Source: Tateyamaria sp. syn59
GTDB taxonomy: Bacteria > Pseudomonadota > Alphaproteobacteria > Rhodobacterales > Rhodobacteraceae
Assembly: GCF_007995245.1 (NCBI RefSeq)
Contig: NZ_VCBA01000006.1
Location: forward strand, 1-64,000
Direction: 5' to 3'
DNA: 64,000 bases
Position 1 is the first letter of the stretch. Each line of letters starts with the position of its first letter. The translations under genes were made by a program, and so were the position numbers. This document shows, piece after piece, positions 464 through 26,674 of the stretch. The notes beneath the pieces are model-generated. The model worked only from the letters and a program-made list of their open reading frames with translations. It searched no databases and was not told where the DNA came from.

Positions 464-1068
464 AGGGCCGATCAAACTGCTCGTGGATTGGTCATTCCCG
501 GAAACCATCGCGATTTCGCTTAGTTCGCAAGGCTTCAATCAGAAAGCTTAGGGTTGAATCGGACAAGACTGCGCACTCTGAGTTTATCGCAGACCGGCCC
601 AAACCTGCCTTTGGCGACTGGGTGTCTATGCTGCGATGCAGCCCGTCAGAGGAGACATTCGCTACGAGCGCGAAGACAAGAGCTAGTCGAACTCACGGTG
701 TGCGGGAATTCCCGACGTTGGGTTTGTCCATGTTGTTGTCGCAACAACCTTTCGCAGCTACGGCAGAGCATGGACCGCGCGGCAACAGGTACCGGCAAAC
801 CTGTCATTGATGGGCTCATGATCTTCCCAGCTTGAGATCGTGCAATCACCATATCCGGATGGCGCAAAATAGACCCTAAAGAAGGCCATCGTTTAGCTTG
901 ACACCCATCATGTCGGCTTAGACGATTGGGGTTACAAACAAAACTATAGGTTGAACTGTACCAAAAAAGGTTGCACGCTTACACTATCTGAGTCTCATCA
1001 GAGCTAACTTACACTTATTTTTTGATAAAAATTTGGGCTCTTAATTGGATAGTCAAAATTTCATTTCG
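464..1068. other. Non-coding stretch with a dispersed repeat remnant
   Basis: No convincing gene was found in these roughly 600 bases. Short open frames here lack good ribosome sites and family resemblance. Around 595-670 lies a degenerate copy of an intergenic sequence type seen elsewhere in the window: a 'GGCCCAAAC' start, a 'GCAGCCC' core and a 'GACATTCGC' end. The last 150 bases (about 900-1068) are AT-rich and lie directly before the CHAT gene, so they probably hold its promoter, but no confident -35/-10 pair was assigned. Confidence 0.5.
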
Positions 1069-4000
1069 ATGTATCTAAGGGCGGTTGCCTCAAAGTTAGC
1101 GGAAGCACTACTTTTTTGTGCTTTTAATCTCACCATTCTCTTGGCGAGTCCTAGTTTCGCTGAAACTGCTCTCGATCGGAGCTACAACTTGTCACAAGCA
1201 GGCCGCCTGGTTGAAGCGGAACAAATACTGCGAAGTGAACTCGCTCGATTAGGAACCAACCAAGTAGACAGCGAATACAGCCTAAAGCTGCTCAATAATC
1301 TTGGGGCTATTTTGAGCAATCAGGGGAGGCTTGAAGAAGCACTCATAGTCTTTGAAGATACCTATCATCGGAGTGCTAGAGCGCTCGACTTCAACCATAA
1401 CGACACGCTCATAGCACTCGGAAACTATGTTTCGACTCTTGTAGATCTTGATCTCGTTGAACGAGCACTTCGCGAACTCGAGGACTTCAAGCAACGCAGC
1501 AAAACGAAAGACGAAGATCCGACAAACGCGACAATTTGGGCCACAGACTATCAACGTGAATTAGCAGCACGTTTCGGTGACTTCGAGCAGGCGCTAAACC
1601 TGTGCAAGGAATGGAAGGCGTATTCAGTCAAATTGGGGGCTGAACCTTCTTCAGTAGTTGCACTGGAGTACACTTTATACTGTTCAGCGTATATGTATTC
1701 GACCGGACAGGCTTCGGCGGCAGAAAGCGAAATCGTATCGGCGATAGAACTCGTACCTGTCGTCAACGCAGAGAATTCGTCGATCGTCATGTCCTTATAC
1801 CATGACTTGTCCCAATTACGCCGAGCTCAGGGACGTATTGCTGAAGCGGCACGAACCCTTGAAGATAGCATCATAGCCGCAGATCGCGCAGGACTGCTTC
1901 ATTCGACCAATACCGGGATCGGAAGCCTGCTAACGCTATCCGAGATCTACTTCGACATGGAAGATTTTAGATCTGGGCGCAACACCTCCGAGAAGGCGAT
2001 CGAAGTATTACAAAGTTTATCAGGCGGAGTGGGATTTCCACAAGACGACCCAGACTATCTTCATGCGTATGCAGCATTCGGTTTTTCACAAGTCATTTTC
2101 GAGGACCCAACGTTAGCTCTTGTACCCTTGCAATATGCCTACAACGAAATGTTCAGCGTAAGCATGAACGCGCTAAGTCAGTTTGAGATAGCTTTTCTCT
2201 ACGGGAAAGCGCTTAAAACGCATGAATATTTCGAAGACGCGATCATTCTACTGGAAGACTTATTGCAAGCACAGATGCAGTACTTTGGGGCCTATTCCAC
2301 TAACCTTTTTCGTACACAAGTTGAAATCTGTAGCGCGAAACTTGCAGTGGGTTTTCAGATCTCTGACGCGCAGGAATGTGAGCTAGCAATGGGGTCTCCT
2401 GCACGGGAAGACCCATTCCACATTCATTCCGAAATTGAGCTTCTGAGATCCATATTAAAGTCGCAAAGTGTGGTAGATGCTGTCGATTTAGTGTCAGACA
2501 TTCATGACCGAATGAACGCCGTGTTTAGTGATGAAGATGAACACTTGCTTTCTCATAAGCTGCAAACCCTAGGTGCAGCGCTACTAGAAAGACTCGGGAG
2601 GGAACAAAGGCTCAATGCAGATCTTCATGCGAGCCTCTCGGTTAAGCTATTGAGAATATTGAATTGGATCGACGAAGCGGGTAGCCCAAGAGGCCTTGGA
2701 GTTGGATCTGCTGCACCCGAGTTAGTTGAGAAACAGGCCTTACTATACCGTGTAAGACAGAGACTGTTGGCTTTGAGTTTGTCCTCAACTGAATACCAGA
2801 CAAAGCGAGAGGAGATCACAAGACGGCACATCGCGTTGGGAGAAGTATACGATGAACTGTCTACTTTGGATCAGACTTCTTCGGTCTTCGAAAACTCGGA
2901 GACAGAGGAGTCCGAGCCATCGAACGATGACATTGCTGGGTCGATCGAACATGCTGGCACACTGGTTCTCTACCGCCTCCTCGCGGGGAAATACTATGCC
3001 GTAGTCCTAACCACTTATGAAACAACAGTTTTTCCTTTGGAAATTGAACTGAAGGAGCTAAACAGTCTGGTTCGATCGGTAAGGCCTGGTGGTGCAAGTT
3101 CATATTTCGAAGTTGGCAAGTCGGCCTCTGAAGAACTTTCGGTGAGTGCGCATTTTCTTCATGAAGCCATATGGCAGCCGATTGCCTCACAAATTCATAC
3201 TGAAGATGTGACTATACTTCCTGATGGGGTCCTATCTCAGTTTCCATTTTACCTTTTGAAGCGATCCCAGGATCATTTGGAGCCAGATTGGCTTTTGTTC
3301 GACGATATTGTCATTACCTATGTCCCGCGAGTCAGTGACGTCTTTTCACATGTTGGTCGAGGTTCAAAGCTTGAACGAAACAGAACTCTGTTCGCTGTAG
3401 GTGATCCGAAACTCGGCAAGTGCAATCAAGAACTTGTTCAGTCGGATGTAGGTTTCTCAGATGACGCAGTCTTTGTGCTTCCTAATTTCCTTAACTGCTT
3501 CTTTCGCAGTCTGCCAGAAGCCCAGCAGGAGGTTGAAGACATATCTAAGCTATTTGAGCATGATAGTGTAGATTTGCTGATTGGGTCTGAAGCATCCGAA
3601 GCTGAGCTGAGGAGACATATCCGCATAGGTTCACTCGAGCAAGCATCAATACTTGTGTTTGCTACTCATGGTGTCTCGGCTGGTGAGTTAAGCTATGTGA
3701 TCGATCCACAGAGGTTGTTTGACAAAGAAGGGTTTGGAGTTGGGACCATTGGCCCATCGGCTGTCGACATTGCACGTCAAACAACTGATATGTCCGAAGA
3801 TGACTTGAGCAAGTTAGAAGGAGCGTTAGTCTTTAATTATTTTGACAGAAATGTTCCTGATAAATACAACCTTTCCGCAGCGGGACTTCTACTTTCAACT
3901 TATCATGCAGGCCCAGAGGTCGATACTTTCAATGACGGTTTCCTCGCAAGTTGGGAGATCGCGAGTATCCCTCTTACCGCTGATATAGTCATATTGTCCG

Positions 4001-4278
4001 CTTGCAATACTGCTCCTTCCAGTCAGTTTGTTGATGACAGGCAATTCATCGGTTTAGTCTCGCCCTTCTTAGATGCTGGTGCAAGATCCGTCCTAGCAAC
4101 GCACTGGGCAGTTGAATCTAACGCGTCATCCAGTGTTTCTAGGAGCTTCTTGCAACAAACTCTAAATGACGGCACAGAGCCGGCCGTTGCTTTGCGAAAC
4201 GCGCTTCGTGAGCTACATGCAAGAGTAGACAATCCCTATCTATGGGCACCATTCTTTTTCGTCGTGGGCGGTCGGTAA
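1069..4278 (+). CDS. Exported TPR-CHAT domain protein (caspase-like protease fold)
   Basis: The 1,069-residue protein begins with a plausible signal peptide (hydrophobic run ending 'SPSFA'), so the ATG at 1069 is preferred over the TTG eight codons upstream. Residues about 30-480 are helical TPR-like repeats. The C-terminal part is a CHAT domain, the caspase-related peptidase fold usually found behind TPRs. The expected catalytic dyad is visible as His867 in 'FATHG' and Cys979 in 'LSACNT'. Its base composition is clearly more AT-rich than most of the window, suggesting transfer. The next gene starts 33 bases later and encodes another exported protein, so the two probably form one unit. CHAT proteins elsewhere act as separase-like or effector proteases. 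An exported form would act outside the cytoplasm; its target is unknown. Confidence 0.85.
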   Translation: MYLRAVASKLAEALLFCAFNLTILLASPSFAETALDRSYNLSQAGRLVEAEQILRSELARLGTNQVDSEYSLKLLNNLGAILSNQGRLEEALIVFEDTYHRSARALDFNHNDTLIALGNYVSTLVDLDLVERALRELEDFKQRSKTKDEDPTNATIWATDYQRELAARFGDFEQALNLCKEWKAYSVKLGAEPSSVVALEYTLYCSAYMYSTGQASAAESEIVSAIELVPVVNAENSSIVMSLYHDLSQLRRAQGRIAEAARTLEDSIIAADRAGLLHSTNTGIGSLLTLSEIYFDMEDFRSGRNTSEKAIEVLQSLSGGVGFPQDDPDYLHAYAAFGFSQVIFEDPTLALVPLQYAYNEMFSVSMNALSQFEIAFLYGKALKTHEYFEDAIILLEDLLQAQMQYFGAYSTNLFRTQVEICSAKLAVGFQISDAQECELAMGSPAREDPFHIHSEIELLRSILKSQSVVDAVDLVSDIHDRMNAVFSDEDEHLLSHKLQTLGAALLERLGREQRLNADLHASLSVKLLRILNWIDEAGSPRGLGVGSAAPELVEKQALLYRVRQRLLALSLSSTEYQTKREEITRRHIALGEVYDELSTLDQTSSVFENSETEESEPSNDDIAGSIEHAGTLVLYRLLAGKYYAVVLTTYETTVFPLEIELKELNSLVRSVRPGGASSYFEVGKSASEELSVSAHFLHEAIWQPIASQIHTEDVTILPDGVLSQFPFYLLKRSQDHLEPDWLLFDDIVITYVPRVSDVFSHVGRGSKLERNRTLFAVGDPKLGKCNQELVQSDVGFSDDAVFVLPNFLNCFFRSLPEAQQEVEDISKLFEHDSVDLLIGSEASEAELRRHIRIGSLEQASILVFATHGVSAGELSYVIDPQRLFDKEGFGVGTIGPSAVDIARQTTDMSEDDLSKLEGALVFNYFDRNVPDKYNLSAAGLLLSTYHAGPEVDTFNDGFLASWEIASIPLTADIVILSACNTAPSSQFVDDRQFIGLVSPFLDAGARSVLATHWAVESNASSSVSRSFLQQTLNDGTEPAVALRNALRELHARVDNPYLWAPFFFVVGGR

Positions 4279-16143: not shown

Positions 16144-16266
16144 ATGCTGTCTCCTGCTAACCACCTATACCAATATTCGGTAATTTTCAATACTCGCGTG
16201 AAGTGGTATGATCTCATGTCAGCGAACTGACGATGGGGTGGCATGTGGTGGATCGGAGGATCAACC

Positions 16267-16902
16267 ATGGAACCTACCCCAAACCTACCTGCCATTCGCG
16301 CCTTGCGCCCGGCCTGGAACAAGGGCCGCATAGTCGGCCAGAAGCGACCACTCAAACCTAAGCATGTGTGGGCCATACGTGTCAGGCTTGAACTCGCCGA
16401 GAATCACCGAGATCTAGCGCTCTTCAATATGGCCATCGACAGCAAGCTTCGGGGCTGTGACCTTGTGAAAATGAAGGTGGTCGATGTCATGGCATCGGGT
16501 CAGATCAAAGAACGCGCATCCGTTCTGCAAAGCAAAACCCAGAAACCTGTACGATTTGAGATATCGGAAGGCACACGCGCCTCGGTTGAAAAATGGATGG
16601 AAGACGAGCTGATGATCGGGTCTGAGTATCTTTGGCCAGGCCGTTTTCACGAGCGGCTCCACATCTCGACCCGCCAGTATGCGCGGATTGTCCGGGATTG
16701 GGTGACGTCGATCGGTCTTGAGGCCAGCGCCTACGGAACCCATTCGATGCGGCGGACCAAAGTCACGCAGATCTACAAGAAGACCGGAAATCTACGCGCT
16801 GTTCAATTGCTGCTTGGGCATACCAAAATGGACAGTACAGTCCGATACTTGGGCGTTGAACTTGAGGACGCTCTTGCAATCGCCGAGGCCATTGAAATCT
16901 AA
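16267..16902 (+). CDS. Solo tyrosine recombinase (catalytic domain only), copy 2
   Basis: A 211-residue tyrosine recombinase that is essentially the catalytic domain alone; the N-terminal DNA-gripping domain of phage integrases is missing. Catalytic residues are visible as Arg62 ('SKLRGC'), His159 and Arg162 ('THSMRR'), His185 ('LGHTK') and the nucleophile Tyr194 ('VRYLG'). CGGAGGA precedes the ATG at 16267. Short integrase-like proteins of this type occur in several copies in many alphaproteobacterial genomes; what they recombine is not established to my knowledge. An inactivated duplicate lies 750 bases upstream, with parDE between. Alternative roles are island maintenance or a domesticated recombinase. 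Confidence 0.88.
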   Translation: MEPTPNLPAIRALRPAWNKGRIVGQKRPLKPKHVWAIRVRLELAENHRDLALFNMAIDSKLRGCDLVKMKVVDVMASGQIKERASVLQSKTQKPVRFEISEGTRASVEKWMEDELMIGSEYLWPGRFHERLHISTRQYARIVRDWVTSIGLEASAYGTHSMRRTKVTQIYKKTGNLRAVQLLLGHTKMDSTVRYLGVELEDALAIAEAIEI

Positions 16903-18485: not shown

Positions 18486-19577
18486 CTATCCCTGAATGAG
18501 GTCTTCGAGCTTCACGGAATAGCGAGAGCGGGTCTGCTTGTATCGTGCGTCGATTTGATGGGGGCCAGCAAGTTCAACGCTTTCGTCCACGAAGAACTTA
18601 CGATCATTAATTTTGACATCAACGGTCAGCCAAGATTTCGGCAACCGAGAGCGTAAATCGTCCTCGTCGTCGAGAACGATATTCAAATAGGAAAAGAGTT
18701 CCGCATGCGAAGCCCTAAAGCTTCTCTCGGTCTTCAGAAAATCCTCTGGACCAAATTTGTCGATGTTGGCCGCCATGTAGGACTGAGCGACCGTATCAAG
18801 CAGTCTGCCAAGCGGAGCATTGATCACCAGATTATAGACACTGTTCTTTAATGACCAAAAATCATCGAAGTCATTCTGGGGCAGTCGACCTGATGTGGCC
18901 CAACGCCTGACTGCAGCGCTTGCACTTCCAAAGGCGGACCTCGGACCAACGAATGCCCGACATCGCGTGATGCCTTCCAGCGTGTCGATATTGATCGGCG
19001 CAGAGAACAAGAACGCGTACTTTCCATCATCTTGCCCTTCAATCAAAGCAAGCACGTCATCGGGCTCAACATCGAATTCCTTCAGGATATCGAGAATCTG
19101 CGACCCAAATCGGGTTGAACCTTTGACGATGTCTCGGGTGGTCCGGTGATGGTTTATCCCAAATCGTTCTTCAAAAACGGGTTCTAACGTATGAGACAGC
19201 GGGCCGTGTCCGATATCGTGAAGCAACGCGGCGCAGACAAGCGTCTTGCGGTCTCTTTCTTCTATCTCAACCTCAAGGGCATAGGTTTCAGCCAGCTTCG
19301 CCACACCAATCGAATGTTCTCTGCGGTTGTGGCGACGCCGATGGGGCTGTCTACCCGACCCTTTTTTTGCGTAGTCGATCGCACCCAAAAACCCAATGCC
19401 CTCCAACCGTCTTAGAGGCACAGTGTGTAACAGCGCGTTCGCAACGCGATCTCTAAGACGAAGGTCTTCATCGGAGCGCAAAGTCGGTGTTGCATCAACC
19501 ATATGCATCAAAGTCGGTGCGCAAACCCGCCTTGGGATGCACTCACCGTCTTGCTGATGGTTGCACTGGATCTGCAC
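18486..19577 (-). CDS. HD-domain hydrolase, dNTPase/SAMHD1-like (first gene of operon)
   Basis: A 363-residue protein with an HD phosphohydrolase core: His88 in 'RREHSIGVAK', His120-Asp121 in 'ALLHDIGHGPLSHTLE', and a later Asp in 'INIDTLEGITRC'. The 'LLHDIGHGPLSH' form is typical of dGTPase/SAMHD1-type enzymes that strip triphosphate from dNTPs. The chosen start is GTG at 19577 because AAGGAG lies ten bases upstream; ATGs at 19508 and 19502 are alternatives without a visible ribosome site. It leads a compact operon with a nucleotidyltransferase and a phosphatase. SAMHD1-like enzymes starve phages or viruses of dNTPs, so a defence role is plausible but unproven here. Confidence 0.85.
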   Translation of the reverse strand: MQIQCNHQQDGECIPRRVCAPTLMHMVDATPTLRSDEDLRLRDRVANALLHTVPLRRLEGIGFLGAIDYAKKGSGRQPHRRRHNRREHSIGVAKLAETYALEVEIEERDRKTLVCAALLHDIGHGPLSHTLEPVFEERFGINHHRTTRDIVKGSTRFGSQILDILKEFDVEPDDVLALIEGQDDGKYAFLFSAPINIDTLEGITRCRAFVGPRSAFGSASAAVRRWATSGRLPQNDFDDFWSLKNSVYNLVINAPLGRLLDTVAQSYMAANIDKFGPEDFLKTERSFRASHAELFSYLNIVLDDEDDLRSRLPKSWLTVDVKINDRKFFVDESVELAGPHQIDARYKQTRSRYSVKLEDLIQG

Positions 19578-19656
19578 CGAGTATCCGCTCCTTAGTCTCT
19601 CTTTCCACCAACATAGGATGAAAATTCCGCTGATACGATGCCCTTATTGGGATTCC

Positions 19657-20178
19657 CTAGCGTTCTAAGCCGAAATCGTGCTCTGACGCCCCACATTTCA
19701 AGCAAAACTCAACGCCCCAGTTCTCATTGTAGGTCCAACCACCTGCCCAACCGCAGGACGGACAGAACTCATACGCCTCCACATCACCCCAGTTCCAGGG
19801 GCTTACCAACTCCGGAACAGCATCACTATCATAGGACACAATTTCGAAGGGATCCTGCCCCACCGTGATGTAACTTTGGGGCACATGCCGCTTTCGCACC
19901 TCAATGACAACCTGGGGCTCAATGAAAAACCACTCACCAAGCTCGGAGCGGCATGCTGAGAACTCCTGATGAAGGCTCTTTTCGAGGGCGCGCCCTTCGC
20001 GAGGGTCATCCCCCTTGATCTCTCCCATCAGCGCAAGCCTCTTGGGGTTGCCGGTTTGCAACTGGCCAACACGGCGTCGCACATCCAACGAGAAGCCGAT
20101 CTTTATGAGCATTGGTCGGCTTTCGTCCGGCGCCTCTTCAGTTACAAAGTAAACGGTCACTCCCACTCCGCTACACAT
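19657..20178 (-). CDS. GIY-YIG (T5orf172/MUG113-type) nuclease-like protein with zinc ribbon
   Basis: A 173-residue protein. The N-terminal half has the T5orf172/MUG113 form of the GIY-YIG fold: 'VYFVTE', then 'IKIGFSLDVRRRVGQLQTGNP', and 'EKSLHQEFSACRSELGEWFF' with the catalytic-type Glu and Arg. The C-terminal 60 residues carry a four-cysteine zinc ribbon ('CPSCG' and 'CLKCG'). GIY-YIG domains of this class occur in phage and defence genes and are presumed to cut DNA. The gene is in the same direction as its neighbours but has 32-79 base gaps. It may be a stand-alone island nuclease; the target is unknown. Confidence 0.8.
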   Translation of the reverse strand: MCSGVGVTVYFVTEEAPDESRPMLIKIGFSLDVRRRVGQLQTGNPKRLALMGEIKGDDPREGRALEKSLHQEFSACRSELGEWFFIEPQVVIEVRKRHVPQSYITVGQDPFEIVSYDSDAVPELVSPWNWGDVEAYEFCPSCGWAGGWTYNENWGVEFCLKCGASEHDFGLER

Positions 20179-20210
20179 GAAGGAACAAGGTCGTCAAAAG
20201 AGGCCCGGCT

Positions 20211-21482
20211 CTACGACGAGAACTTTGAAAACAGCAGGCGTTGAGGCGGTCGGACCAGGGTGTCCGACACTTCGATCATCGTGCTCGGTTTTTTTCGTCC
20301 GCCGCCTTTTTTCTCTATTTCCAACTCACCATCAGCAGCAAGCTTCTGCAAAACACGGAAAATCATTTCATTTTGGGCGGCTGTCAGATTTCCGACCTGT
20401 GACAACAAAGCTTCAACCATCAAGACACGATTGGTCATGTTATCCATCACCCGGCTGGGTAATTCATTCTCCAACTCCTTGAGGAGTTTTGCCTCGTCAT
20501 CATCACGGAATGAGAACAATGCGTCTTTGCTTTCAGCCAGCCGATGATCAAAACCAAGCTCAAAAAGGCTGCCCTTTCCGATATGCCGAAAATGGTTCTG
20601 TTGATCCCAATGGACCGAGAGCATCTTATCGCGTGCCGCCTGGTGTTTCGACAAGTGTGCAAGCAGCATCCAGCGTTTGTCCGTTTTGGAATACATCATG
20701 AACGGGGTGAAAAAATGCGCTCCACTTTTTCTGGCAAGCGTCTCCATGATCGCGCGCTGTGCCGTTGCGCGCCCGAAGTTCTCGTCATCCTTCAGCTCAT
20801 GCCAGGTTTTGACAAAGCTGTCGCTCACACCAAACTGCCGCAACCCGTCCAGTCCGCTCCCATCCGTGCGCAGATAGTTCAACAGCGCATCGATTGAGAA
20901 CGTAAGAATGGCTTCGGGCTTGTCTAATGTGGAGAAGATTTGCTGAAGGCAATGCACTGGGACATCTACATAGCCCCACTGATCGAGGACGAAGAAACTA
21001 CGACCTTGGCGCTGCCGTTTCTTAATATCGGCTAGTACCCTCGGTAGCAGCTCTTCGAAGACACCAGTCTGGAGGATGATCGTGTCATCCAAGCGCTTTG
21101 CAAACTCACTTTTGAGGAGCTCGTCGCGCAAGGCTGCCATGTGCAGTTTGTTAGCATCGCTGAAATAAAATTGCGCTGCGATCTCCAGCGGCTTATGGCG
21201 ATCCGCATTCACACGGACCCTGGCTTTCTCTACCGCATTGAGAAGCGCAAAGGGGCTTCCGTGGCGGATTTCGTTGCCTTTTTGATAAAGTCCGCCACCG
21301 CAAAACCCGTCCACAATTGTGATCCGCAGAGTATCCATGCGCCGGCTGGCTGTGACCGTATCAAAATAAACGTCGAGGTATTGCTCGATGACCTCAAGTT
21401 TTCGTTCTGTATGCGCTTCGATCCCGGGAAGAGGTTCGCCTATTTTCCATTTGAAGTTCTGCTTCTTCGCCATCTTACCCAA
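20211..21482 (-). CDS. tcmP: Three-Cys-motif partner protein TcmP
   Basis: A 423-residue protein matching the TcmP family in opening and core: 'HTERKLEVIEQYLDVYF', 'ITIVDGFCGGGLY' (a Rossmann-like 'DGFCG.G' loop), and 'FFVLDQWGYVDVPV'. TcmP proteins are nearly always encoded beside a three-Cys-motif (phage Gp37/Gp68-like) protein, as is the case here. The fold suggests a methyltransferase-like nucleotide-binding core, but the family's reaction is not known to me. A C-terminal region of about 100 residues ('LLSQVGNLTAAQNEMIFRVLQ') could be a helix-turn-helix-like add-on. An internal Met at residue 4 is another possible start. Confidence 0.85.
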   Translation of the reverse strand: MGKMAKKQNFKWKIGEPLPGIEAHTERKLEVIEQYLDVYFDTVTASRRMDTLRITIVDGFCGGGLYQKGNEIRHGSPFALLNAVEKARVRVNADRHKPLEIAAQFYFSDANKLHMAALRDELLKSEFAKRLDDTIILQTGVFEELLPRVLADIKKRQRQGRSFFVLDQWGYVDVPVHCLQQIFSTLDKPEAILTFSIDALLNYLRTDGSGLDGLRQFGVSDSFVKTWHELKDDENFGRATAQRAIMETLARKSGAHFFTPFMMYSKTDKRWMLLAHLSKHQAARDKMLSVHWDQQNHFRHIGKGSLFELGFDHRLAESKDALFSFRDDDEAKLLKELENELPSRVMDNMTNRVLMVEALLSQVGNLTAAQNEMIFRVLQKLAADGELEIEKKGGGRKKPSTMIEVSDTLVRPPQRLLFSKFSS

Positions 21483-21544
21483 TCAACTAAATGAGTTTGC
21501 ACTAAACTGAACAGTCCTGGTACAAACACAAGATGCGAGCAGCC

Positions 21545-22321
21545 TTAAAGCTGAATTTCTGCCGGCATTTCATCCCAAGTCTGGCCGCGATAGCTCCGTC
21601 CATTCATCTTCTTTGAGCGTCGTTTGTTATCTTTCCCCCAGGTTCCCCATTGCTTGAAAAAGAATGCGGTTCCATGCTGCCGACAGACATCATGAATATC
21701 GTCGATCCATTCCTCTTTGATCGGACGGGCAGATCGACCGCTTTCGCCACCGACAATCGCCCAATCGATATCTGTCAAATCAATTTTGCCAACACTGTCG
21801 ATCAGCGGCTCAAAAGAGATGAAACGAATCCGAGCTGGGACTTGTCGCAGCTCATCGATACGGTGGACAACGTCCTGCCCTTCAACGCTGGTTCCCAACC
21901 ACACATTGCGCAAAGGATCAGCGCAAATATCACGTAACATCTCTGCCATTCGATCCGGTCTTTTGGTCAAAACCTGATAGTGGTGGCGTGGCGTGTCTGA
22001 CATCACTTGCCAAACGTCCGCAACAAACGAACCCGAAACGTCAGGGTGGAATAGATCGCTCATGGAATTTACGAAGATCTTGCGTGGTTTCTTCCACTTT
22101 CTTGGGATTTCGAGGGACCTGCGATCTTCGTGCACGACACCATTCCAGATCGTGCGCCTACCAGATTTCCGGGTGAGCCCCTTATATTTTTCCACACCCA
22201 TGGCTTCCAAGCGCCTGGCCATATTCATCGCATAGCAGTTTGTGCATCCAGCAGACATAATCGTGCATCCGGCTACCGGATTCCATGTTGCATCTGTCCA
22301 TTCGATTTGCGTTTCAGCCAT
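21545..22321 (-). CDS. Three-Cys-motif / phage Gp37-Gp68 family protein (DUF5131)
   Basis: A 258-residue protein starting 'IEWTDATWNPVAGC' and carrying the signature cysteines in 'GCTIMSAGCTNCYA'. These resemble a radical-SAM iron-sulfur motif and give the three-Cys-motif family its name. Other family hallmarks are 'FVNSMSDLFHPDV', 'VLTKRPDRM', 'WLGTSVEGQ' and 'IVGGESGRSARP'. It lies upstream of, and in line with, TcmP with a 62-base gap, so the pair is intact. Family members are common in phages and islands. A radical-SAM-type modification of a nucleic acid or small molecule is inferred, not shown. Confidence 0.88.
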   Translation of the reverse strand: MAETQIEWTDATWNPVAGCTIMSAGCTNCYAMNMARRLEAMGVEKYKGLTRKSGRRTIWNGVVHEDRRSLEIPRKWKKPRKIFVNSMSDLFHPDVSGSFVADVWQVMSDTPRHHYQVLTKRPDRMAEMLRDICADPLRNVWLGTSVEGQDVVHRIDELRQVPARIRFISFEPLIDSVGKIDLTDIDWAIVGGESGRSARPIKEEWIDDIHDVCRQHGTAFFFKQWGTWGKDNKRRSKKMNGRSYRGQTWDEMPAEIQL

Positions 22322-22615: not shown

Positions 22616-23179
22616 CTAGTATTGGCGGGCTCCGAGTTGTCTCTTTACGCCCGTCTTACCGATCCTCCATGTGGCCAGCTGTCGGCTCACGCCGTAGTGA
22701 TTAGCTACACCTTGAGCATCCAAGCCAGCGCCACAGTGATATAACAAGCCGTCGCGGGGTAGGAGCATACATCCCGCAAGCCAGTCGGCCTCTTCTTCAA
22801 ATTCCTTCGGGTAGTCACTCAAGAGAAGCAGTCCACCGTCAGAGCGGTCTGCGCGGTTGGGCTTATGCCTTAACTCGATGTGTGACCATTCGTGCATCAA
22901 GGTGTTTGCCTGCCTCCCAACCGGGTGGCTAGAGTTGACGATTATCAGCGTCTTCTCGTCGACTTTAATTGTAACGCCAGACCAGCTGTCAGGATCCACG
23001 ACGGTAAGCTGGTGAAGATGTCCCAAATCGATGTCGGGGACATCGGCAGGTTCCCACACCAGGATTCCAATCCTCTGCAAAAAATTTCTTGGCTCCAGGC
23101 GATCACGCGGGCCGAGGCCAGCCGCTGCCCTATGCTTCAGCGCGAGTTTTTCAGCTTGAGTCTTGAACCCGCGCCGCAT
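22616..23179 (-). CDS. ImmA/IrrE-family metallopeptidase
   Basis: A 187-residue protein with the zinc peptidase motif 'LMHEWSHIELRH' (HExxH type) and a downstream Glu in 'EEEADWLAGCMLLP', the layout of ImmA/IrrE (Pfam DUF955). Its ATG lies two bases after the stop of an XRE repressor gene. In ICEBs1 and many phages such an enzyme cuts its XRE partner after a DNA-damage or other signal and so turns on the genes the repressor silences. Here the divergent genes beyond the repressor are the ubiquitin-like operon, the likely controlled unit. Confidence 0.88.
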   Translation of the reverse strand: MRRGFKTQAEKLALKHRAAAGLGPRDRLEPRNFLQRIGILVWEPADVPDIDLGHLHQLTVVDPDSWSGVTIKVDEKTLIIVNSSHPVGRQANTLMHEWSHIELRHKPNRADRSDGGLLLLSDYPKEFEEEADWLAGCMLLPRDGLLYHCGAGLDAQGVANHYGVSRQLATWRIGKTGVKRQLGARQY

Positions 23180-23181
23180 CC

Positions 23182-23517
23182 TTACAGGTTCTCTCTGTCA
23201 CGGAGGGCTTCTTGCGCTTTCAGGATCATGCCGCCAAGCGCCGTCGCGGTATCGATGTGCGTGGCATCTTTTTTACGGAATTGTACGGATGCGGTTTCTG
23301 CCGGCTTTCGTGTAGGCTGCATCCCAAGGAACCGATTAGGGTCTTCACCTAGCCAATCACAAATTTTCGCGAAGGTGGCCAGGTCGGGAACGTTCCCGTT
23401 CTCGACACGGGAGAGCGTCGCAGGACTGATCCCAATCTCTTTAGCCGCTGCTCGCACTCCAAGTGTTCCGCGGTGTTCGATGATCATTTTCCCGAGATTC
23501 TCGATACTTAGAGTCAT
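23182..23517 (-). CDS. XRE-family transcriptional repressor
   Basis: A 111-residue protein with an XRE/Cro-type helix-turn-helix at residues about 5-60 ('GVRAAAKEIGISPATLSRVENG', 'FAKICDWLGEDP') and a short C-terminal tail. ATG at 23517 gives the usual start just before the HTH. A TTG at 23535 close behind an AGAGGA is possible. It forms a two-gene unit with the ImmA-like peptidase and is divergent from the ubiquitin-like operon. Three near-identical palindromic sites lie in the shared upstream region (23572-23628) and are the obvious candidates for its operators. Confidence 0.85.
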   Translation of the reverse strand: MTLSIENLGKMIIEHRGTLGVRAAAKEIGISPATLSRVENGNVPDLATFAKICDWLGEDPNRFLGMQPTRKPAETASVQFRKKDATHIDTATALGGMILKAQEALRDRENL

Positions 23518-23571
23518 AGTGCTTTTAACGCACAAGATTCCTCTTGACGGGTCATGTCTGTGCTCCTAAGT

Positions 23572-23628
23572 GTTTCTTTAATGAGACGTTAATCGTCTCT
23601 TTAGTGTAACGCGTTTCTTTCGTGAGAC
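23572..23628. promoter_or_regulatory. Array of three operator-like palindromes
   Basis: Three 16-base sites fit GTYTC-N6-GAGAC: 23572-23587 and 23613-23628 fit exactly, and 23595-23610 ends GTAAC instead of GAGAC. Their starts are 23 and 18 bases apart. They sit between the XRE-ImmA pair (minus strand) and the multiubiquitin operon (plus strand). They are best read as binding sites of the XRE protein for auto-repression and for control of the divergent operon. Confidence 0.65.
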
Positions 23629-23703
23629 ACTTGAATCACTGAATATGCTTGCCGTCAAGCTTTTTGAAACGCGGCGTGGGGCAGTAAAACAAGGAGCTAC
23701 GGC

Positions 23704-24381
23704 ATGTCAGAAGCCGCTCAAGAAGTCGAATATGACCTGACAATCGACGATCAGAATTTTCGGACGTACGACCCTGTCATCACCGGTCGCGACATTCTCG
23801 CGATTGCGTCTCACAGCCCGGCATCGGGATACACTGTAGTCTCGATCATCGATCGAGGCACACAGTCCATCGGCCTCGATGAACAGGTCGATTTGCGCGG
23901 AACCGTTTCGCAGCGCTTCCGATTGTTCGAAGGCGACAGGCTCTTCCGCGCCATGCTAAACGAAAGGGAAATCGTTTGAGGAGAAGGGCAGATTTCCGCA
24001 CTGGAACTTCGCTTGATCGGTGACATCCCAGATGATGAGGATCTGTATTTTGACTCCAAAGGTGATCGCGTGATCGAGGATGACGACATCCTTTCATTGA
24101 AGCCGAAGGGTGTTGAGAGGTTCCGGTCGGGCGATCCGAAGGATCAGACCGTCGATGTGGTCCTGAATGGCGAAGTCATCACGGTTGAGAAAGGGCGCCT
24201 TTCCTTCTCGGACCTGGCAAAACTCGCATTTCCGAAACTCTTCGGAGGGGCTCTGATCTGCTTCACGGTCTCATTTTCGAGGGGGCCGAAGCGACGTAGC
24301 GAAGGCGTCCTCCTCGAAGGAGGCAAAGTTCGCGTTGTCGAAGGGATGGTCTTCAATGTCTCAGCAACTGATAAATCGTAG
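23704..24381 (+). pseudogene. Multiubiquitin-domain protein, interrupted by an in-frame TGA
   Basis: A 226-codon frame starts at ATG 23704 and ends at TAG 24379-24381, with one internal TGA at 23977-23979 (codon 92). The reading frame is the same on both sides. Three ubiquitin-like (Multi_ubiq, beta-grasp) units can be read: residues about 7-72 ('YDLTIDDQNF...', 'VDLRGTVSQRFRLF'), about 73-137 (across the TGA, 'ALELRLIGDIPDDEDLYF', 'LKPKGVERF'), and 141-222 ('VDVVLNGEVITVEKG', ending 'FNVSATDKS'). In this family Trp is common at the interrupted position, so TGG-to-TGA is the likely change. No terminal Gly-Gly is present. Either the gene is dead, the N-terminal 91 residues act alone, or the TGA is read through. 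An internal TTG at 24013 lacks a good ribosome site. Confidence 0.75.
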
Positions 24382-25543
24382 CGCCGATCTTCAGCGCCTT
24401 GTCTCGGAAGGCTATGCGGTCAGCGTTTCCGAGGGTCACCTGTTGGTCGAGGAGATCCCCTACCTCGATCGACATGGGGCCGTTCGCCGTGGCGTCTTCG
24501 GTTGTGCGCTCGATGCTACTTCGGAACGTACCGTTGCACCTAGGGATCACGTCATGTCGTTCTCGGGCGACGAACCGCACGACAAAAACGGTAACCCACT
24601 TTCTGCGCTCGGGAGGACGAGTCCGAGATGCACAATGGTTGGATCGATTGCGTTCCAGCACGGCTTCTCGAACAAGCTACGCGATACCAGTGGAGGACAC
24701 AGGGGCTATGCGGACTTCTACGAAAAAGTGCGCACTTACGAGGACATAATCCTCAGCGAAGTCCACGCATTGGATCCGACGGCGACAGCAAGGGTTGGGG
24801 CGATGCCGCCAACTGCCTCGGAGCGTGACCCGTTCGTCTTCCCCGACAGCGCATCAGCCCGAGCAGGTACAACGAAGTTGGCGAGCGTTTTCAAGCGAGA
24901 AGTCATTGCCCACATCGGCTTGGGTGGCACCGGCGCTTACATCCTGGACCACGCGACGAAGACACCGGTGCTCAAGAACCATTTGATCGATGGTGACCGA
25001 CAGTATCCTCACAATGCGTATCGATCGCCCGGCACCCCGTCGCTCGAGGAAATGCAACCACCACCATTCAAAGTGCATTACCACGCTGCACGTTACGGAC
25101 GGATGAAGCGGAACATCGTGCCGCATCCCACGAAGCTTACTGCTGCAAATCTGGAACTTCTCGAGGGGGTCACATTCGCTTTCCTGGCAATCGACGCGTG
25201 TCCGGAGAAGGCCAACATCGTTTCTGAGCTCGAGCGCAGAGGCCTGCCCTTTGTCGATGTCGGAATGGGTTTGCACCTCAGCAGCAATGGTATCGGCGGA
25301 ACCCTTCGGGCCGTCTTGAGCACAAAGGAGAACAGGGGCTCGGTCAGGCCCCATATTCCCCTAGATCCCGGCGGTCGAGAAAACATTTACGAGAACAACA
25401 TCCAGATCTCGGAATTGAACTCTCTGAATGCCGACATGGCGGTTCAGCTTTGGAAGGGTTTTCGAGGCTTCTACGCCAATTTCGCCGAACCGATTTGGCA
25501 CTATCAGATCGAGACGCGTCAAATGATAAGAAGTGCAGCATGA
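24356..25543 (+). CDS. E1-like ThiF-family protein with N-terminal DUF6791-type region
   Basis: A 395-residue protein starting at ATG 24356, inside the last 26 bases of the multiubiquitin gene. Residues about 1-170 resemble the N-terminal region paired with ThiF in ubiquitin-like operons ('SADLQRLVSEGYAVSV', 'DKNGNPLSALG', 'DYEKVRTYEDI'-like). From about 180 comes a ThiF/E1 adenylation domain: 'HIGLGGTGAYILD' nucleotide loop, 'LIDGDRQYPHNAYRSPG', and 'FAFLAIDACPEKANIVSELE'. E1 proteins adenylate the C-terminus of ubiquitin-like proteins. A free catalytic cysteine cannot be assigned with confidence, although one lies in 'DACPEK'. Its stop overlaps the next start (ATGA). It should pair with the multiubiquitin protein. 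Confidence 0.85.
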   Translation: MSQQLINRSADLQRLVSEGYAVSVSEGHLLVEEIPYLDRHGAVRRGVFGCALDATSERTVAPRDHVMSFSGDEPHDKNGNPLSALGRTSPRCTMVGSIAFQHGFSNKLRDTSGGHRGYADFYEKVRTYEDIILSEVHALDPTATARVGAMPPTASERDPFVFPDSASARAGTTKLASVFKREVIAHIGLGGTGAYILDHATKTPVLKNHLIDGDRQYPHNAYRSPGTPSLEEMQPPPFKVHYHAARYGRMKRNIVPHPTKLTAANLELLEGVTFAFLAIDACPEKANIVSELERRGLPFVDVGMGLHLSSNGIGGTLRAVLSTKENRGSVRPHIPLDPGGRENIYENNIQISELNSLNADMAVQLWKGFRGFYANFAEPIWHYQIETRQMIRSAA

Positions 25544-25986
25544 CCCCAGTCGAGATGGAAATCACGCCGAGGTTTGTCGAGTTCATCCCAAAAGACTTGG
25601 AGGAAGGCGTACTCTATATCTCAGGCGAATACGCGACGACCGCGCATCCGTGCGCCTGTGGATGCGGAGAGAAGGTCGTGCTCCCGCTCCATCCGACGGA
25701 TTGGAGACTGAAATTCGACGGGAAGGCCATCACAATACGGCCATCCGTGGGGAACTGGGGCTTCCCATGCCGATCTCACTATCTGATCACGGATAACCGC
25801 ATCGAATGGGCGGTCGATTGGACTGACGATCAAATCGCCGCAGGTCGTCGGCGCGACACGCGCCGGAAGTCTTCTTGGCATGCGAAGGCGCTGCCATCGC
25901 CAGCGGAACACACCAAGCGGGCCGTCCCTCAAGGCAATTGGCTGCTGCGACTATTTCAACGAATGAAGAATTGGTCCCGAAAATAG
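25540..25986 (+). CDS. DUF6527-type metal-binding protein of the ubiquitin-like operon
   Basis: A 148-residue protein whose ATG overlaps the stop of the E1-like gene (ATGA), showing translational coupling. It opens 'ITPRFVEFIPKDLEEGVLYIS' and has a cysteine cluster 'HPCACGCGEKVV', then 'PSVGNWGFPCRSHY'. The Cys/His pattern suggests a zinc site. This is the pattern of the DUF6527 family that accompanies multiubiquitin and ThiF genes. Its role (E3-like adaptor, protease or substrate recognition) is not known to me. The C-terminus is basic. It ends the operon unless the small basic gene 68 bases later is included. Confidence 0.8.
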   Translation: MTPVEMEITPRFVEFIPKDLEEGVLYISGEYATTAHPCACGCGEKVVLPLHPTDWRLKFDGKAITIRPSVGNWGFPCRSHYLITDNRIEWAVDWTDDQIAAGRRRDTRRKSSWHAKALPSPAEHTKRAVPQGNWLLRLFQRMKNWSRK

Positions 25987-26054: not shown

Positions 26055-26312
26055 ATGCCGAAAAGAACGCGATCAGAATCCACCGGCAAACGCGCCGCAT
26101 CTGCCGCAAGCAAGACGCTCAGAAGCCGTACCGCTAGCAAAGCCGCAAAATCGGCGGCGGGGTCTGCTCTGACGCAGGTGCGAAGCAAGGAAGTAACCAG
26201 TAAGAAGGCTGCAAGCGCGGCCTCAAAAACACTCCGGAACCCAAGGGCGTTTAAAGCCGCCAAGTCAGCGGCAGGGTCCGCCTTGACGCAGCGTCCAGGG
26301 CGAAAAAAGTAG
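26055..26312 (+). CDS. Small basic Ala/Lys/Ser-rich protein with an internal duplication
   Basis: An 85-residue, strongly basic protein. Two copies of a roughly 28-residue unit are visible ('AASAASKTLR', then 'KAAKSAAGSALTQ') at residues about 13-40 and 52-79. GAGGA ten bases upstream supports the ATG at 26055. The composition suits a nucleic-acid-binding or unstructured protein. It lies 68 bases behind the ubiquitin-like operon in the same direction and 285 bases before tRNA-Pro. Whether it belongs to the operon is unclear. No function is assigned. Confidence 0.55.
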   Translation: MPKRTRSESTGKRAASAASKTLRSRTASKAAKSAAGSALTQVRSKEVTSKKAASAASKTLRNPRAFKAAKSAAGSALTQRPGRKK

Positions 26313-26597: not shown

Positions 26598-26674
26598 TGG
26601 TCGGAGTGAGAGGATTCGAACCTCCGGCCCCTGCCTCCCGAAGACAGTGCTCTACCAGGCTGAGCTACACTCCG
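26598..26674 (-). tRNA. tRNA-Pro (anticodon CGG)
   Basis: The minus strand folds into a complete cloverleaf of 77 bases including encoded CCA. The acceptor stem CGGAGTG pairs with CACTCCG, the D arm GCTC pairs with GAGC, and the anticodon stem CTGTC pairs with GGCAG around the loop TTCGGGA (anticodon CGG). The T arm GGAGG-TTCGAAT-CCTCT follows. No intron. Its 3' end points at the accessory island to the left, the usual orientation for integration. Confidence 0.96.

Follow-up and report, generated by a model that had tools for sequence, protein, structure and literature searches.

Operons that combine a polyubiquitin-like (polyUbl) gene with the gene of an E1-like enzyme were tabulated by Iyer in 2006, and note b to row 6e of Table 1 in that paper refers to a form in which a distinct domain of the E1 replaces the JAB domain and a Zn-finger-like protein is also encoded (PMC1779556). 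A 2016 paper on Synechocystis states that 70% of the PF14452 proteins adjoin potential toxin-antitoxin loci with a COG2856/DUF955 component (PMC4963859), and a 2026 paper in EMBO J places CapW or CapH+CapP beside 219/544 Bub operons (PMC13373217). Here, we describe a locus of Tateyamaria sp. syn59 found within a stretch of 64,000 nucleotides (nt), positions 1 to 64,000 of contig NZ_VCBA01000006.1, hereafter the window. In this locus an XRE-type repressor gene and an ImmA/M78 metallopeptidase gene (22616-23535, minus strand) diverge from an operon encoding a multiubiquitin protein, an E1-like protein with DUF6791 and ThiF-type domains, and a DUF6527 protein (23704-25986, plus strand). On balance, we favour the reading that this is a polyUbl operon of Iyer's row 6e, of the kind in which the E1 carries a "domain X", placed behind a CapH/CapP-like switch, and that the two are mobile as a single unit of about 4 kb.

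The operon shares with row 6e a ubiquitin-like protein (Ubl) of one to three domains and an E1 in which an N-terminal domain "X" stands in for JAB; its small, putatively metal-binding protein resembles "Y" in having paired Cys and Cys/His residues. The signature of "Y", C-x(3)-C-x(35-38)-H-x(2)-C, is close to, but not identical with, the CxCxC...CxxH found in the DUF6527 protein: the kinds of residue agree and the last pair is reversed here. Unlike the tabulated form, the window Ubl gene is interrupted by a TGA codon and a divergent XRE-M78 pair is added. The multiubiquitin cassette with Slr6057-Slr6056 on Synechocystis pSYSX also sets an XRE gene and a COG2856/DUF955 gene beside multiubiquitin, E1 and metal-binding genes; however, this cassette includes an E2 gene and the pair is read there as toxin-antitoxin (PMC4963859). 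Like CapH+CapP, the locus combines, at the operon promoter, an XRE repressor with an HExxH M78 peptidase, but its peptidase is shorter and matches the capP model only in part.

Judged by its domain content, the operon is of the polyUbl type having an E1 with a non-JAB N-terminal domain (Iyer 2006, Table 1 row 6e, note b), and the locus as a whole is an ordinary case, its operon type having been known since 2006 and the neighbouring switch since 2016. The original prediction, made from the sequence alone, had held the combination of components and control worth testing as a distinct system. This part of it does not hold: the operon type is in PMC1779556, and the pairing with the switch appears in PMC4963859 and PMC13373217.

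Among solved structures, the closest E1 fold is that of Citrobacter Bub (PDB 9ea4, 9ea5, 9ea8, 9eae and 9eav), which also has extra sequence N-terminal to the E1; unlike the window operon, Bub has a separate BubB partner. BilABCD shares a Ubl and an E1 with our locus, but the window operon lacks both the E2 (BilB) and the JAB protein (BilC); BubB, too, is presumably an E2. The ZDHYS365 multi-ubiquitin domain protein (PDB 9cd2) matches the window Ubl over all three domains (E 1e-55) and ends, as the window Ubl does, in TDKS; unlike the latter, it is intact. No paper on 9cd2 was found among the matches listed.

All the five genes initially proposed are present at their positions, but the Ubl gene is not intact, an in-frame TGA having been overlooked (Table 1). 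Three Multi_ubiq matches fall in the single Ubl frame 23704-24381, and Pfam gives Multi_ubiq at 8.5e-14 over 24013-24378. The overlapping starts and stops noticed earlier are real. The most probable start of the E1 gene, ATG 24356, gives it an overlap of 26 nt with the Ubl frame, which ends at 24381; the DUF6527 gene most probably starts at ATG 25540, where ATGA overlaps the stop codon of the E1. The Ubl-E1 overlap measures 26 nt in 38/44 operons of this type surveyed (see below) and 41 nt in the other six (6/44). In the window, the Ubl and DUF6527 genes are separated by the E1 gene and no other and, in agreement with the prediction, Pfam finds neither a JAB nor an E2 domain in any of the three operon proteins.

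Table 1. Coordinates of the features of the locus, as positions in the window
Feature	Position	Strand	Description
M78/ImmA metallopeptidase	22616-23179	minus	187 amino acids (aa); HEWSH motif, CapP-like catalytic domain; Pfam PF06114 6.4e-11
XRE-type repressor	23182-23535	minus	117 aa; Pfam HTH_3 1.8e-7
Operator-like palindrome 1 (GTYTC-N6-GWRAC)	23572-23587		no full match in L012 or L013, half-sites partly kept
Operator-like palindrome 2	23595-23610		pattern also matched in L012 and L013
Operator-like palindrome 3	23613-23628		matched in L013; L012 keeps half-sites GTTTC and AGAC, pattern incomplete
Multi-Ubl gene, 5' part	23704-23979	plus	Ubl domain 1 and start of domain 2; Multi_ubiq 1.3e-10; ends at TGA
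In-frame TGA	23977-23979	plus	within the second of three Ubl repeats
Multi-Ubl gene, 3' part	23980-24381	plus	rest of domain 2 and domain 3, frame unchanged; end ...FNVSATDKS
E1-like protein	24356-25543	plus	395 aa; DUF6791 ~1-145, ThiF-type adenylation domain ~170-395
DUF6527 protein	25540-25986	plus	148 aa; Pfam DUF6527 1.2e-24
Module common to the window and L013	22451-26408		92.4% identity over 3962 columns

The divergent switch and the shared module

A total of 44 DUF6791-type operons were surveyed, the window operon included, drawn from plasmid records (26/115), family and phylum genomes, genome contigs and viral contigs. The plasmid records were hand-picked from a list, spread over its ranking: one (from sewage) of 45 Acinetobacter records was taken and a clinical Klebsiella record was skipped. 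Locus L032 (contig end before the Ubl gene), genome G279 (weak partial match) and many partial matches to ThiF only were excluded; L091 is cut inside the E1. In the search that gave these partial matches, 8/398 genomes, counting the window genome, have a full-length match, and no E1 match was found among 50,697 phage records. In a class-wide sample of 385 genomes, Multi_ubiq was present in 11 besides the window genome, in six DUF6791-type operons and in five with an E1 like that of L099 and L100, which, from the motif, are presumably of the JAB type. All three genes are named by the annotation in 24/26 plasmid loci; in the other two, the DUF6527 frame is unannotated (L083) or split around an IS256 transposase gene (L077).

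The two nearest relatives, L012 and L013, both have the XRE-ImmA pair. The window and L013 have the ~4 kb module in common (Table 1), while the L013 flanks (3.8 kb and 7.1 kb) are without match to the window; thus, the switch and the operon behave as one unit. The XRE protein is 95.7% identical in L013 and 82% in L012, at the same place in both.

More broadly, when only divergent M78 genes with E < 1e-10 and no farther than 1 kb from the Ubl frame are counted (the strict count), 19/44 operons have one upstream; three more upstream M78 genes (L082, L087 and L094) are weaker, farther or co-directional. No M78 gene was found downstream in any of the 44, with a downstream context of less than 1.1 kb in L018, L031 and L091. 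A WYL regulator occupies the same upstream slot in two operons (L018 and L078). Grouping 50 operons at 80% E1 identity gave 39 clusters, of which 17 have a strict M78 and two a WYL. In the class-wide sample, M78 stands upstream in 4/6 DUF6791-type operons and in 4/5 of the others, being weak (3.3e-6) in L126 among the latter. The gene-neighbourhood survey advised in the original prediction thus finds the pairing outside the window genome, in keeping with the claim that the divergent switch belongs with the operon. Chance co-occurrence of the XRE-ImmA pair is ruled out by its presence in L012 and L013, by the survey and by the module shared with L013: the pairing is not due to chance, but it is already in print.

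Whether the pair regulates the operon is a separate matter. It could instead be a toxin-antitoxin pair, in which the XRE protein would neutralise a toxic partner, or an independent defence cassette, accompanying and stabilising the operon, an alternative that we consider unlikely. The depositors of PDB 7t5t named it "CapP toxin", and the peptidase of L025 matches PD-Lambda-2_B (7.9e-109, PADLOC), which belongs to a separate defence system. The toxin-antitoxin reading was proposed in 2016 for pSYSX, in the paper that sets such loci beside 70% of PF14452 proteins (PMC4963859). However, the pair is divergent at the operon promoter in 19/44 loci and an M78 gene was never found downstream, the WYL regulator takes the same slot as expected of exchangeable regulators, and operator-like sites lie between the two promoters.

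These sites are three palindromes of the form GTYTC-N6-GWRAC. The pattern has five strand matches in the 64 kb, all in the XRE-Ubl intergenic region, versus 0.80 expected, and 0/100 shuffles reach five. When aligned with L012 and L013, the half-sites prove to be conserved for the most part. Under the favoured reading of a regulatory switch, the XRE protein would repress the divergent promoter at the palindromes and, by analogy with CapH+CapP, where cleavage of the repressor is activated by ssDNA, damage or infection could activate the M78 peptidase, leading to cleavage of the repressor.

Some observations speak against this reading. The window peptidase matches PADLOC capP at 4.7e-10, over model positions 12-150 of 242 only, and its match to the CapP of PDB 7t5t is non-significant (E 0.042). 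A close divergent M78 gene is missing, by the strict count, from 25/44 operons, which means that the operon does not always come with the switch. Furthermore, the operator pattern was picked after inspecting the intergenic region, which makes its match count descriptive. In favour of the switch, three of the five sister peptidases scanned with PADLOC, those of L020 (1e-66), L081 (2.9e-51) and L084 (1.7e-53), match capP at full length and occupy the slot that the peptidase has in the window; that of L027 matches it only partially, as in the window, and the fifth is the L025 peptidase mentioned above.

In L020, L026, L077, L085 and L086, a small DUF2188 or DUF1508 gene separates the switch from a Ubl gene with a single domain.

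The Ubl end, the E1-like protein and the DUF6527 protein

The last residue of the Ubl is a serine in 44/44 operons, window frame included, and in 5/6 of those from the class-wide sample, the remaining one (L123) ending in alanine; glycine is the last residue in 0/50. The gene overlap adds to this picture. The serine codon of the Ubl is TCN in 44/44 and the overlapping E1 codon CNT in 44/44, while the E1 residue encoded there is R in 21, H in 15, L in five and P in three, all four residues that CNT allows. Because the E1 residue varies within the limits of the serine codon, selection appears to act on the Ubl end. Among the literature matches listed, "C-terminal serine" occurred in one, PMC5515868, which concerns mycobacterial AAA+ proteases.

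A glycine end was considered as a clean contrast with the JAB-type sister operons, and the idea was given up. Although FG occurs close to the end of the Ubl in L099 and L100, the last residues of L121 are DDNS, and L124, L126 and L129 have a matched frame without a simple Ubl end.

In the E1-like protein, Pfam detects DUF6791 (7.6e-39, in a 402-aa open reading frame, ORF) and no ThiF at E values up to 0.1. The adenylation domain is recognised by NCBIfam PRK06153.1-4 (3.7e-109, above the model cut-off), and profile matches include TcdA, BubCD, UBA5 and MoeB chains. In an alignment of 50 E1 sequences, one of which is cut at a contig end, the glycine loop is kept in 50, D212, R223 and K239 in 49, D214 in 48 and D280 in 47; every one of these adenylation residues is present in the window E1. 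An E1 devoid of adenylation residues, which the original prediction had named as a finding that would refute it, is ruled out by this conservation. A structural model built from seven sequences (mean predicted local distance difference test, pLDDT, 76; predicted template modelling score, pTM, 0.55) has eight Citrobacter BubCD chains as its best folds (E 5e-9 to 1.4e-8, 15-18% identity); with a root-mean-square deviation of 7.7-10.1 over 259-267 columns, only fold-level relatedness between the E1 and BubCD can be claimed. Residues and fold support an E1 that would adenylate the last Ubl domain at its carboxyl end.

None of the cysteines is shared by all 50 E1s. Position 75, next to the invariant P74, comes closest: it is C in 35 E1s, H in 12, that of the window among them, and L, F or Y in a single E1 each. 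At position 278 a C is present in 22/50, and the E1 frame of L027 has zero cysteines. In the DUF6791 domain, H65, S105 and Y128 are found in 50/50, K107 in 49 and K124 in 48. The DUF6527 protein keeps C38, C40, C42, C77, S79, H80 and Y81 in 42 or 43 of the 42-43 sequences counted, arranged as C38-x3-C42 and then C77-x2-H80 with 34 residues between. Its model, built from 19 sequences, has a mean pLDDT of 79.

Serine-ended Ubls together with the lack of a common E1 cysteine suggest, at the sequence level, an acyl transfer without the usual glycine and cysteine. After adenylation, the Ubl could be passed to targets or to itself with neither a C-terminal glycine nor a universal E1 cysteine. For this step the acceptor or hydrolase site would most likely reside in the DUF6791 domain, with its invariant H65, S105 and Y128, and the role of a partner that binds metal and recognises targets would most likely fall to the DUF6527 protein.

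A more specific version of this chemistry can be put forward tentatively, as possible rather than probable. Ester intermediates are part of the Bub pathway. The DUF6791 operons may encode a Ubl pathway able to run without C-terminal glycine and catalytic cysteine, in which the E1 would adenylate the C-terminal serine and DUF6791, as part of the same polypeptide, would handle the acyl group via S105, with H65 and Y128, as an ester and not as a thioester. The cysteine-free E1 of L027, and the Ubl serine codon held while the overlapping E1 residue varies, count in favour of this version; the C at position 75 in 35/50 E1s and the Ubl that ends in alanine count against it. As a speculation, the serine end might close on itself, giving a reactive lactone.

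It is also conceivable, even if rather unlikely, that no covalent conjugation takes place at all, with the three-domain Ubl assembling into filaments and the E1-like enzyme only adenylating or otherwise modifying the Ubl end. Such a reading would be at home with the lack of E2, JAB, universal E1 cysteine and C-terminal glycine, and with the solved structure of the similar Ubl in 9cd2. Gong et al. are said to have described, in 2025, filaments of three-domain bacterial Ubls. However, the Ubl frame measured from its first Met is at most 110 aa long in 21/49 relatives, with room for one domain, which makes three-domain filaments unlikely as the core function, and the E1 adenylation site is kept.

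A transfer step involving DUF6791 and DUF6527 has, in turn, several points to its disadvantage. Up to E 10, neither DUF6791 nor DUF6527 has a sequence match in PDB, the BubCD chains giving none to DUF6791 either; no significant fold match was obtained for DUF6527 (best PDB E 0.68); the step that follows adenylation is thus predicted from conservation. The comparison of DUF6791 with two small prokaryotic E2 alignments gave no profile similarity. Moreover, position 75 provides most E1s with a candidate cysteine, which counts against the whole branch working without one.

DUF6791 was also considered as an E2/UBC-like domain: its predicted order of helix, four strands and helix is suggestive, and the candidate was set aside given the profile result above. 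No mention of DUF6791 and no report on the function of DUF6791-type systems were found in the literature searched, nor any mention of DUF6527 among the literature matches listed. For a widespread Ubl family, the serine end and the lack of a common E1 cysteine in the sampled DUF6791 branch amount to a testable chemistry prediction.

Short DUF6527 genes are also present in viral contigs (L034-L046, 13/15 viral DUF6527 loci) without E1 or Ubl match in the flanks examined. In four of them (L038, L039, L044 and L045), a DUF5131 gene lies ~0.4-0.5 kb upstream of the DUF6527 gene; in the window, a DUF5131 gene (21545-22321) adjoins the ImmA gene.

The interrupted Ubl gene

At the position of the TGA, the Ubl frame is open in the two closest relatives, L012 and L013, and encodes a tryptophan. 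The same residue is found in 20/20 relatives whose Ubl frame reaches 205 aa or more (three-domain), and the remaining 29/49 aligned relatives have a gap in that column. Given the in-frame TGA, the full three-domain Ubl is probably not made from the window gene, and the module is probably either inactive or dependent on re-initiated translation of the last Ubl domain.

Compared with L013, the window Ubl gene has 19 codon differences, 11 silent and eight non-silent. Assigning a change to the window lineage where L012 and L013 agree, this lineage has one substitution, the stop and four silent changes; two silent differences fall on the L013 lineage and the others are unplaced. The gene is, therefore, little decayed apart from the stop, a point that does not favour a dead module: it fits a very recent break, but a sequencing error as well. 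The break looks recent, or else it is such an error. As an apparent recent loss of the modifier gene with the rest intact, the window module bears on how such modules decay or come to be tolerated.

A Ubl gene that is functional in the window genome, because the TGA either arose in sequencing or assembly or undergoes readthrough, is in our opinion improbable. In its favour, the frame is otherwise conserved, with a single further amino-acid change placeable on the window lineage, and the genome is a draft of 56 contigs. On the other side, the stop falls cleanly on the invariant tryptophan position with no frameshift involved, and a decoding of TGA as selenocysteine is unlikely, since the genome has no tRNA-Sec candidate above the cut-off (eight candidates, all below it, the best at 46.9 versus 47 bits) and the two best of the eight are tRNA-Ser according to ARAGORN. 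The same tRNA-Sec search also rings in 14/14 control genomes.

Less likely still, the split gene could work as it is, with re-initiation after the TGA yielding a shorter Ubl with an intact last domain. Relatives reduced to the last domain (81-88 aa, in 6 of the first 16 plasmid loci) show that one domain can suffice; moreover, a GAGGAG lies directly at the stop (23978-23983), and several in-frame non-ATG starts follow (ATT 23992, CTG 24001, TTG 24013, CTG 24043, GTG 24070, TTG 24097 and GTG 24157). However, there is no in-frame ATG between the TGA and the third Ubl domain, and the start best placed, by eye, behind a Shine-Dalgarno-like sequence, GTG 24070, would keep only the end of domain 2.

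Among 19 other genomes of the genus, no full-length match to the locus was found, with one 63-base match in G1125. The plasmid locus L077, in which two pieces of the DUF6527 frame flank the IS256 transposase gene, is a second interrupted operon of the DUF6791 type.

Genes around the operons

In the window, a tRNA-Pro gene (26598-26674) stands at the right edge of the module and an ORF of the phage integrase family (16243-16899) lies to the left; no long repeat of the tRNA-Pro was found within the window. Inside the segment shared with L013, a small ORF with an internal duplication (26055-26312) has no Pfam match.

Elsewhere, a large UvrD-helicase gene is a second recurrent partner of these operons, located upstream in 6/26 plasmid loci (adjacent in L015, L016, L017, L019 and L021, farther in L028) that come from alphaproteobacteria, a cyanobacterium and Acinetobacter. 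In L015 and L016, a PD-(D/E)XK nuclease gene lies downstream.

To the left of the switch, a cassette at 18486-22321 includes an HD-domain gene, a T5orf172/GIY-YIG-type gene, a gene matching PDC-M30A (PADLOC 2.1e-25) and the DUF5131 gene (PDC-M41B 6e-103), a content that suggests a defence island. The gene matching PDC-M30A is presumably TcmP-like. Lastly, the beginning of the window (1045-4278) encodes a TPR-CHAT protein, with a CHAT domain match at 6.2e-40.

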